Positions 5,449-8,608 of a stretch of 64,000 nt of DNA are shown piece by piece. The stretch covers positions 325,630 through 389,629 of the forward strand of contig NZ_CP040602.1 of NCBI RefSeq assembly GCF_005885815.1, read 5' to 3'. The position numbers and the translations under genes are program-made. Each line of letters begins with the position of its first letter. Within the stretch, counting starts at the first letter, position 1. Source of the stretch: Thiomicrorhabdus sediminis. GTDB lineage: Bacteria; Pseudomonadota; Gammaproteobacteria; Thiomicrospirales; Thiomicrospiraceae. Below the pieces are notes generated by a model, which saw nothing but the letters and a program-made list of their open reading frames with translations, was not told where the DNA came from and made no database searches.

Positions 5449-5826
5449 ATGAGAAAAGCAATTACATTAAGTGTTTTATTGTCGTTCTTTAGTGTATTGG
5501 CGTTACCGGTGCAGGCGGCAATGGTAGGCACTGAAGAAATTGTGCAAAACGCACAAATGATCGATGAACGCGCTAAGCTGAACGAGTTTTTGCAGCGTGA
5601 AGATGTCAAAGTCCAGTTTGAAAATATGGGAGTCGCATCTCAAGATATCGAACAGCGTGTGGCGGCACTGACAGATCAAGAAGTCATACAGCTTAATCAG
5701 CAGATGGAAACCCTGCCTGCCGGTGAAGGTATTGTCGGATTGGCGGTATTTTTATTTGTGGTCTTTATCATTACCGATGCATTAGGGGCGACCGATCTAT
5801 TCGATTTTGTCGATCCGATTCGTTAA
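5449..5826 (+). CDS. PA2779 family protein (small exported protein)
   Basis: This is a 125-residue protein of unknown function resembling Pseudomonas PA2779. Residues 1-23 form a signal peptide ending PVQA. A charged middle part (ERAKLNEFLQRE, then DIEQRVAALTDQEV) resembles a short helical regulatory segment. Residues about 98-115 form one hydrophobic span (VGLAVFLFVVFIITDAL), so the mature protein is probably membrane anchored. AGGAG precedes the ATG. Its stop overlaps the start of the peptidase-like gene by one base (TAATG), so the two are very likely translated together and may act together. The family name is recognised from sequence; no biochemical role is known to me. Confidence 0.8.
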   Translation: MRKAITLSVLLSFFSVLALPVQAAMVGTEEIVQNAQMIDERAKLNEFLQREDVKVQFENMGVASQDIEQRVAALTDQEVIQLNQQMETLPAGEGIVGLAVFLFVVFIITDALGATDLFDFVDPIR

Positions 5827-6839
5827 TGACAAGCGCATTAATACAGCGATTACACACCCGGCTTTTGTCGGGTGTTTTGTTTGTGCTGATTGTTGCGGTA
5901 ATGCAAGGCTGTGCCTATGCGCCACAGGTTAAGCAACTGCAACAAAACGGTTGGGACAATTTATCGATTGCCAAGGCCGTCGAGTTGACCGATGTGCCCT
6001 TTTTCCCCCAACAGAAATATCAGTGTGGGCCGGCGGCCTTGGCGACAGTGCTTAACTACAACAATATTAATGTCGAGCCGGAAGAGCTGCGCGCCAAAGT
6101 TTATGTGCCGAAACGTCAGGGCAGTTTTCAAATAGAGATGATTGCCGCGACTCGCCAATACGGCAAACTGCCTTATCCATTGGATCCGAGTCTTGAGGAT
6201 CTGCTAAGAGAAGTTGATGCAGGCAATCCGGTGCTGGTGTTGCAAAATTTGGCTTTCGAGAACATGCCGCAATGGCATTTTGCGGTGGTAGTCGGTTATG
6301 ACCTGAATCGCTCTGAAATTATTTTACGTTCAGCCACCAGCAAGCGCTGGACAACGTCGCTGAGCAATTTCGAACAAACCTGGCGTAAGTCGAATTATTG
6401 GGCATTGGTGGTTACCGATGCCGATAAGGTTCCGCCTACAGCAACCGTTTCCAAATGGTTGGCGGCCGGTTTGGATTTAGAAAAAATAAAGCGTTATCAA
6501 CAGGCGCAACAATCCTATCGGGCGGCAACGCGAAACTGGCCGTTACAAGACAAGCCATGGTTAGCCTTAAGCAATCTGTTTTATAAGCAAAAGCGTTATC
6601 AGGATGCATCTGCCGTGCTCAAGCAAGCGCTGAGCAATATTAAAGACAGTGCCGAGCTATGGAATAACTATGCGTATCTGTTAAAACACGAAGGTTGTTA
6701 TCAGAGCGCGCAACAAGCCGCTGCATGTGCTTTGCAATTAAAGGCCGATGACAAGAATATCATCGCGACTTGGCAAGAGATGCAGCAGTTGGATTTATCC
6801 GGTTCGAAAAGCTGTGAGGCCATTCAATGCGACCGTTAA
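5826..6839 (+). CDS. PA2778 family cysteine peptidase (C39-like domain plus TPR), lipoprotein
   Basis: This is a 337-residue exported protein. A hydrophobic signal ends at VMQGC, a lipobox-like site with Cys29. The papain-like C39 domain follows: Cys67 in YQCGPAALATVLNY is the likely nucleophile, and His151 in WHFAVVVGYD the likely partner. Residues about 205-320 are helical repeats of TPR type (KRYQQAQQSYRAA, then KRYQDASAVLKQAL). Bacterial C39 domains cleave leader peptides, but here there is no ABC transporter and the domain sits outside the cytoplasmic membrane, so the substrate is unknown. Overlap with the PA2779-like gene suggests a functional pair. It converges with the oxygenase gene on the other strand with a single base between stops. 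Confidence 0.85.
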   Translation: MTSALIQRLHTRLLSGVLFVLIVAVMQGCAYAPQVKQLQQNGWDNLSIAKAVELTDVPFFPQQKYQCGPAALATVLNYNNINVEPEELRAKVYVPKRQGSFQIEMIAATRQYGKLPYPLDPSLEDLLREVDAGNPVLVLQNLAFENMPQWHFAVVVGYDLNRSEIILRSATSKRWTTSLSNFEQTWRKSNYWALVVTDADKVPPTATVSKWLAAGLDLEKIKRYQQAQQSYRAATRNWPLQDKPWLALSNLFYKQKRYQDASAVLKQALSNIKDSAELWNNYAYLLKHEGCYQSAQQAAACALQLKADDKNIIATWQEMQQLDLSGSKSCEAIQCDR

Positions 6840-6840
6840 A

Positions 6841-7482
6841 TCAGCGTGCCGGGTCGAGGTTTATCGCCGTTGAGGCATTGCAACGGAACCAGCCGGCGAT
6901 ACTGGCACGGGGTTGCTGTGTCGGCAATACCTCGTGTGGTGTCTGTTCACTTAAGAAAACCACCAACTTGCCGATTTCCGGCATTGCGGTATGTAAAACC
7001 TGTTCACCATCTTCACTGTAGATGACCAATTCACCGCCCCATTCATTTTGCCATTGCGGATTAAGGTAGAGTACGGTGGTAATCATGCGATTGGCATTGC
7101 CGCGGAAACTGTCGCTGTGTTTTTTATAGAAGTCGCCCGGGCTATAAAGCGCATAGTGGCATTCGTATTCAAACAAACCCATAAACAGCTCACGATTGAG
7201 TTGCTGTTGTAGCAGTGCCATTTGTGCGAGATACTGTTGTTGCGCTTCACTTTGACCGTTTAGCCAGTAGATAGAATCGCGGCGGATACCATGATTTTTT
7301 TGGTGTTGTTGTCCACGACCAATCCCGGCTTCTTCCATCTGACCTTGTTCATCCAAGGCGTCCAGTTCATTGAGCAGTTGCAAACATAGCTCATTGGAAA
7401 TGGCATTCGGCCATTCACACCAGCCTTTTTCGACCAGCGCATCAATCATGTGCGCAATGATTTCTACCGATAAGCTCTGCAT
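6841..7482 (-). CDS. 2-oxoglutarate/Fe(II)-dependent oxygenase (prolyl-4-hydroxylase-like)
   Basis: This is a 213-residue double-stranded beta-helix oxygenase. The iron ligands are visible as His122-x-Asp124 in YKKHSDSF and His183 in TPHEVLP, with Arg192 in QPRASIAGW as the likely 2-oxoglutarate carboxylate contact. TTVLYLNPQW and GGELVIY are typical of the P4Hc/2OG-FeII_Oxy_3 group. Members hydroxylate proteins or small molecules; EF-Tu and ribosomal protein hydroxylases belong to this broad class, but the substrate here cannot be read from sequence. It is a lone gene converging on the C39-like peptidase gene, with the sRNA/leader region behind it. Confidence 0.85.
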   Translation of the reverse strand: MQSLSVEIIAHMIDALVEKGWCEWPNAISNELCLQLLNELDALDEQGQMEEAGIGRGQQHQKNHGIRRDSIYWLNGQSEAQQQYLAQMALLQQQLNRELFMGLFEYECHYALYSPGDFYKKHSDSFRGNANRMITTVLYLNPQWQNEWGGELVIYSEDGEQVLHTAMPEIGKLVVFLSEQTPHEVLPTQQPRASIAGWFRCNASTAINLDPAR

Positions 7483-7620: not shown

Positions 7621-7649
7621 TTGTTTTTTAAAGAGTGGGTTGCTATCTT
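7621..7649 (+). promoter_or_regulatory. Probable promoter of candidate small RNA
   Basis: TTGTTT (7621-7626) and TATCTT (7644-7649) are spaced by 17 bases. Initiation would fall near 7656, just at the start of a strong stem-loop. Confidence 0.45.
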
Positions 7650-7653
7650 AGCT

Positions 7654-7812
7654 ATACCTGCCCGCTATAAGTCATTACGGGCAAGTATTTCACCTAAGGC
7701 AACACTAGGTAAGCGAGTGGCATAGTGATCTAAGTCTTTCGATTGCTAGTGAGGAATAATCAAACAATACTCACTTTTAAAAAAGTTTGTACGCGCTTCG
7801 GCGCGTTTTTTT
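7654..7812 (+). ncRNA. Candidate small RNA of about 155 nt
   Basis: No protein fits this stretch. It begins with an 11-bp stem (7654-7664 with 7678-7688, one C-A mismatch), contains AGTGAG (7748-7753) complementary to CTCACT (7770-7775), and ends in a textbook terminator with a TTCG tetraloop. A promoter-like pair lies just upstream. It matches no RNA family I recognise: it does not look like 6S, 4.5S, CsrB or tmRNA. It could be an independent sRNA or a prematurely terminated leader of the speD operon. Confidence 0.45.
7791..7812 (+). terminator. Terminator with UUCG tetraloop
   Basis: ACGCGC-TTCG-GCGCGT is followed by seven T. There is no coding region directly upstream on this strand, so it must end a non-coding transcript. 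Confidence 0.88.
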
Positions 7813-7873: not shown

Positions 7874-7903
7874 TTGCTTTTTTTTCAAAAAATCCAATAA
7901 TAC
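7874..7903 (+). promoter_or_regulatory. Probable promoter of the speDEC operon
   Basis: TTGCTT (7874-7879) and TAATAC (7898-7903) are spaced by 18 bases in a T/A-tract-rich stretch. Initiation near 7910 would give a leader of about 200 bases before speD. Confidence 0.4.
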
Positions 7904-7985
7904 GCATCTTCCTTTTTCACACAGAAACCTTTGAAATTTTTGCAAAAATGCGAATTAACTAAAGGCAACAGAAAGAAAAATGGTT

Positions 7986-8088
7986 AACACCTCACATGAC
8001 AGAAATCATGTGGTTGGGGTTCAACAGACTAGCCTTTGTCCGTTGGACTAATATTAATCATTCATCCGTAGCTCATCTAATTTTACGG
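7986..8088 (+). other. Structured 5' leader of speD
   Basis: CACATGA (7993-7999) pairs with TCATGTG (8006-8012), extended by AACACC against GGGGTT (7986-7991 with 8016-8021). A small hairpin GTCC-GTT-GGAC follows at 8038-8048, and CCGTA (8066-8070) can pair with TACGG (8084-8088) just before the ribosome site. No ORF occupies the region. It could be a cis-acting element sensing polyamines or S-adenosylmethionine, but this is inference. Confidence 0.4.
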
Positions 8089-8110
8089 GTGTTTTCAAAA
8101 GGTGCTCAAG

Positions 8111-8608
8111 ATGTCACATTCAGAAAATGTACTGGTTACCAGTAACGACCATTTTGAAGTTGTAGAAAAAACAACAATCATTGACGATTCATGGCCAACA
8201 CATGACCAAGCGGTAGAAGATCAGACTTTGGATCATTTCATTACCCGTGAAGGTAAAACGTTTGCCGGAACTCACATTATTGCAGACTTTTGGGGTGCTT
8301 CGCGCTTGGATGACTTGCAGTTGATGGAACAAGCCCTGCGCGAAGGTGTGGAAAAAGCTAAAGCAACCTTGTTGCATATCCACCTTCATCACTTTACACC
8401 TAACGGCGGAATTTCCGGTGTTGCGGTATTGGCCGAATCACATATCAGTGTGCATTCTTGGCCGGAACGCAACTATGCGGCATTCGATGTCTTTATGTGT
8501 GGTGATTCTCAGCCTGAACTGGCGATTGAAGTGCTTAAACAGGCCTTTACGCCAACTGATGTTAAGGTGGATAACCTGCTGCGTGGTGAGGTGAAGATCG
8601 ATGACTAA
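8111..8608 (+). CDS. speD: S-adenosylmethionine decarboxylase proenzyme
   Basis: It decarboxylates S-adenosylmethionine to give the aminopropyl donor for spermidine. It is the short self-cleaving bacterial type: the motif [12 protein letters not shown] holds the processing serine, Ser110, which becomes the pyruvoyl group, and Cys130 follows in FDVFMCG. The protein is 165 residues because about 47 residues precede the region that aligns with the compact Thermotoga/Bacillus form. ATG 8111 has AAAAGG eight bases upstream; a GTG at 8102 in the same frame lies inside that site. The stop overlaps speE by eight bases, so the two are co-translated. A structured leader lies upstream. Confidence 0.95.

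Follow-up and report, generated by a model that had tools for sequence, protein, structure and literature searches.

The intergenic region between a divergent 2OG-Fe(II) oxygenase gene and speD in Thiomicrorhabdus sediminis appears, on the evidence of its sequence, to contain a real and strongly terminated non-coding unit (7654-7812) that is known from this one sulfur-oxidizing bacterium. The chances seem to us about even that the unit is a young, lineage-specific non-coding RNA of ~155 nt, and hence a candidate small RNA (sRNA). The conserved RNA of the gap is, as far as alignments can tell, a separate entity, namely the leader of speD (~7905-8113), which lies behind a promoter of its own. 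This leader is the better lead in the gap, and may tentatively be regarded as a new translational riboswitch class or another cis-regulator of spermidine synthesis.

The analysis concerns a stretch of 64,000 nucleotides (the window) from a complete genome of 2.37 Mb in which Hfq is encoded. Downstream of the gap, speD is followed by speE and then by a PLP-dependent ornithine/arginine-type decarboxylase gene, and these genes together form a polyamine-synthesis cluster. On the other side, the C39-peptidase/TPR lipoprotein gene (+) and the oxygenase gene (-) overlap tail to tail at 6836-6841, with no terminator between them. The features under discussion are collected in Table 1.

Table 1. Features in and around the oxygenase-speD gap, numbered from the first nucleotide of the window.
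Feature	Position	Strand	Details
C39-peptidase/TPR lipoprotein operon	5449-6839	+	includes + strand gene 5826-6839
2OG-Fe(II) oxygenase gene	7482-6841	-	divergent; upstream border of gap
Promoter-like pair	7621-7649	+	TTGTTT (7621-7626)-N17-TATCTT (7644-7649)
5' hairpin	7654-7688	+	at predicted 5' end
Candidate orphan sRNA	7654-7812	+
Weak hairpin	7748-7775	+	AGTGAG (7748-7753)/CTCACT (7770-7775)
Intrinsic terminator	7791-7812	+	ACGCGC-UUCG-GCGCGU plus U tract; stem-loop 7791-7806
speD promoter	7874-7901	+	TTGCTT-N16-AATAAT, from alignments; in relatives AATAATAC precedes leader
Conserved structured speD leader core	7976-8113	+	ends in speD start codon (8111-8113)
Conserved loop GCCUUU	8032-8037	+	complementary to speD Shine-Dalgarno sequence (8097-8102)
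speD	8111-8608	+	downstream border of gap

Sequence elements of the putative transcript

All of the strings quoted in the first-pass annotation are present at the locus, and the one element that clearly exceeds chance is the terminator. Its stem is perfect, as had been described, the count of seven T holds when the last stem base is included, and no terminator as good arose in 500 shuffles of the gap. The proposed promoter pair is present with its 17-nt spacer, but only 7 of its 12 bases agree with the consensus. It also possesses a TGn extended -10, an additional feature that had gone unmentioned; an equally good extended -10 site occurs in 41% of dinucleotide shuffles of the gap, so the promoter does not rise above chance, and the pair was absent from the list produced by a promoter scan of the sequence. 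The 5' hairpin begins 4-5 nt past the -10 box and, where a stem of 11 bp had been claimed, consists of 10 Watson-Crick pairs and one C.A mismatch. Its folding energy is low (z -3.2 relative to shuffles), and an inverted repeat just as good is present in 20% of shuffled gaps. The second pairing can form as described, but with a probability of only ~0.3 in the ensemble. The interior of the unit (7689-7790) has a folding energy like that of shuffles (z -0.87), and the value for the whole unit (z -2.7) is largely owed to the first hairpin and the terminator. There is no ATG on the + strand of 7654-7812, and a small protein was rejected on this ground. The first-pass annotation recognized no known RNA family, and indeed no family in Rfam 15 reaches its gathering score for the unit; weak matches in E-value mode lie far under those scores.

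An sRNA is rendered plausible by the combination of a terminator-ended non-coding stretch, a plausible promoter, a 5' hairpin and a genome-encoded Hfq, and the fact that speD has a promoter of its own downstream of the terminator was likewise counted in its favor. Transcription would proceed from the weak extended -10 promoter, the hairpin would protect the 5' end, and the UUCG terminator would supply the 3' end, with a U tail onto which Hfq could be loaded. Such an RNA would act in trans on mRNAs. Transcription, start site, Hfq binding and regulation are all points that we infer from these sequence features. Predicted pairing of the candidate with five nearby regions yielded nothing convincing, the best pairing, with the start of the oxygenase gene, being equalled in 3% of shuffles (uncorrected). 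By itself, the sRNA candidate would, if true, represent one more species-specific regulator.

Distribution among relatives and competing readings

Within the genus, speD was located in 21 of 32 genomes and the regions upstream of it were compared, revealing seven relatives that keep the oxygenase-speD gap (G008, G012, G014, G021, G023, G024 and G030). The alignment of this gap that the first-pass annotation had proposed went partly against the sRNA: the 7654-7688 hairpin and the terminator are found in none of the seven, and stems and terminator alike lack conservation at the locus. Between the oxygenase start and the speD -10 lie 413 nt in T. sediminis versus ~170-210 nt in six of the seven relatives (four of these six values being the position of a coding motif inside the gene, 239-242 nt, minus ~60 nt), so that the extra DNA in the gap roughly equals the unit in length, a point in favor of the sRNA; in G023, where the start codon is uncertain, the distance is up to 283 nt. 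A nucleotide search for homologues of the candidate in the 32 genus genomes returned only terminator look-alikes. A covariance model for which the candidate's sequence and predicted structure were the sole input gave no significant match in these and 63 family genomes, the best match (G097, 24 bits, E 0.026 per genome over 63 genomes) being treated as chance. No second copy was found elsewhere in the genome of T. sediminis itself. The lack of a homologue in the genus and family removes comparative support for an sRNA, and the unit is a lineage-specific orphan. Conservation in close relatives is usual for sRNAs, though it is not a requirement, and a young species-specific sRNA would not be disproved by the lack of homologues.

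Two possible origins of the unit were considered and rejected. A phage, plasmid or viral source found no match among phages, plasmids and viral contigs. Duplication of a piece of the speD leader was suggested by AAGGCAACA, which both share, yet 27% of shuffles score equally.

The most serious rival holds that the terminator keeps transcription of the C39-peptidase/TPR lipoprotein operon from reaching speD, such that no separate sRNA exists. The first-pass annotation saw no coding region upstream that would need the terminator; this is unsafe, as the + strand gene at 5826-6839 has no clear terminator before 7791. None was found on that strand between 6840 and 7790, and read-through termination is a real rival precisely because the terminator at 7791 is the first clear one past 6839. 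A comparable arrangement is seen in some relatives in which a trp gene precedes speD (L035 and L045), the trp-gene terminator lying ahead of the speD promoter. Against this, the terminator stands 950 nt past the stop codon, versus at most 30 nt for the three other equally strong terminators of the window, and it is absent in G014 and G008, whose + strand gene likewise ends upstream of the oxygenase. Read-through termination also leaves the 5' hairpin unexplained. We judge it less likely, and favor the reading of the unit as a young orphan sRNA.

Less probable still is a neutral or decaying insertion, such as what is left of a mobile or regulatory element, still with its terminator but now devoid of function; the confinement of the unit to one genome, the ~200 nt of extra DNA and the lack of conservation would be consistent with such a history, whereas the intact terminator and the lack of any other genome copy argue against it. 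An attenuator of speD, in which a transcript from the upstream promoter would either stop at 7812 or read into the speD operon, is very improbable, for although the unit immediately precedes speD and shares its strand, speD's own promoter comes after the terminator, the predicted folds include no strong alternative anti-terminator, and relatives do without the element.

The conserved leader of speD

The leader core is built on an invariant 8-bp helix (AAUGGUUA/UAAUCAUU), lengthened to nine pairs in most sequences, which encloses two hairpins; a third hairpin follows ahead of the Shine-Dalgarno sequence. Analysis of 19 leader sequences with RNAalifold gave 40 pairs, 11 of which are changed on both sides. 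Among 28 aligned leaders (27 distinct), 97.0% of cells pair and 13 pairs carry compensatory changes in an alignment fitted to the model, with which an independent MAFFT alignment agrees (helix 4 ignored); none of the shuffled and slid controls came near the observed value. The leader in the window itself folds with a z of -3.45.

The distribution of the leader follows that of speD. A model of the core (R2) has matches in 30 of the 63 family genomes, each directly upstream of speD, and in three genera (g1, g6 and g3) the leader is present in 30/30 genomes with speD and 0/15 without it. The model has no match in the other speD-bearing genera (g2, g5 and g7), nor, under strict filters, in 319 further genomes sampled from the class. 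One feature expected of a riboswitch was found, namely a conserved structured leader with covariation that is tied to one pathway. A leader peptide was considered and rejected, as the ATGGTTAACACC frame meets stops early in relatives.

How the leader might act is suggested by its conserved loop, which by sequence is complementary to the Shine-Dalgarno sequence over 6-8 bp in all 28 leaders. Loop variants (GCCUUU/GCCUUGU) match variants of the Shine-Dalgarno sequence, GCCUUGU occurring with GUAAGGU and GCCUUUGU with AUAAAGGU; these matches amount to few lineage-level changes and are suggestive support for pairing. The complementarity fits translational control through Shine-Dalgarno sequestration. 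As a riboswitch or other cis-regulator, the leader might respond to spermidine, S-adenosylmethionine or decarboxylated S-adenosylmethionine, with the CCUU loop hiding the speD Shine-Dalgarno sequence.

The leader also varies in its peripheral parts. In G012 (L047 846-1500) and G023 (L048 1122-1494) it carries insertions of ~170-450 nt in all, which resemble small mobile or repeat elements; they fall within variable loops and leave the conserved flanking helix strands intact. At its 5' end (7905-7975), most Thiomicrorhabdus leaders have an extra hairpin (ACCUU..AAGG) with CACAGAAACC and GGCAACAGAAAG flanks, swapped for a short UUCCAAAAG in others, e.g., T. chilensis (L039/L057) and Hydrogenovibrio sp. 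SC-1 (L063).

Relation to known regulatory RNAs

The candidate sRNA resembles the intergenic Hfq-type sRNAs of Gammaproteobacteria in its intergenic position, promoter-like site, 5' hairpin and U-tract terminator, as well as in the presence of Hfq in the genome. It differs from them in having neither an Rfam sequence or structure match nor a homologue, and in being known from sequence alone.

For the speD leader, no Rfam 15 family, SAM-I included, reaches its gathering score. We found no published description of it in a literature that lay mostly outside subscription papers, and an earlier description is possible. Convincing natural polyamine riboswitches are few. As a compact leader that accompanies speD one-to-one in three genera of sulfur-oxidizing bacteria, it is a directly testable riboswitch candidate. 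The closest published system, found in Gram-positive bacteria, is a spermidine-responsive SAM-I riboswitch variant that acts via transcription termination, in the description of which earlier polyamine riboswitch claims were judged unconvincing (Salvail et al., 2023; PMC10853860). Both are structured leaders of genes for polyamine synthesis, speD among them, but the leader described here is gammaproteobacterial and has no SAM-I match, and in place of the terminator of the Gram-positive riboswitch it presents a loop complementary to the Shine-Dalgarno sequence.
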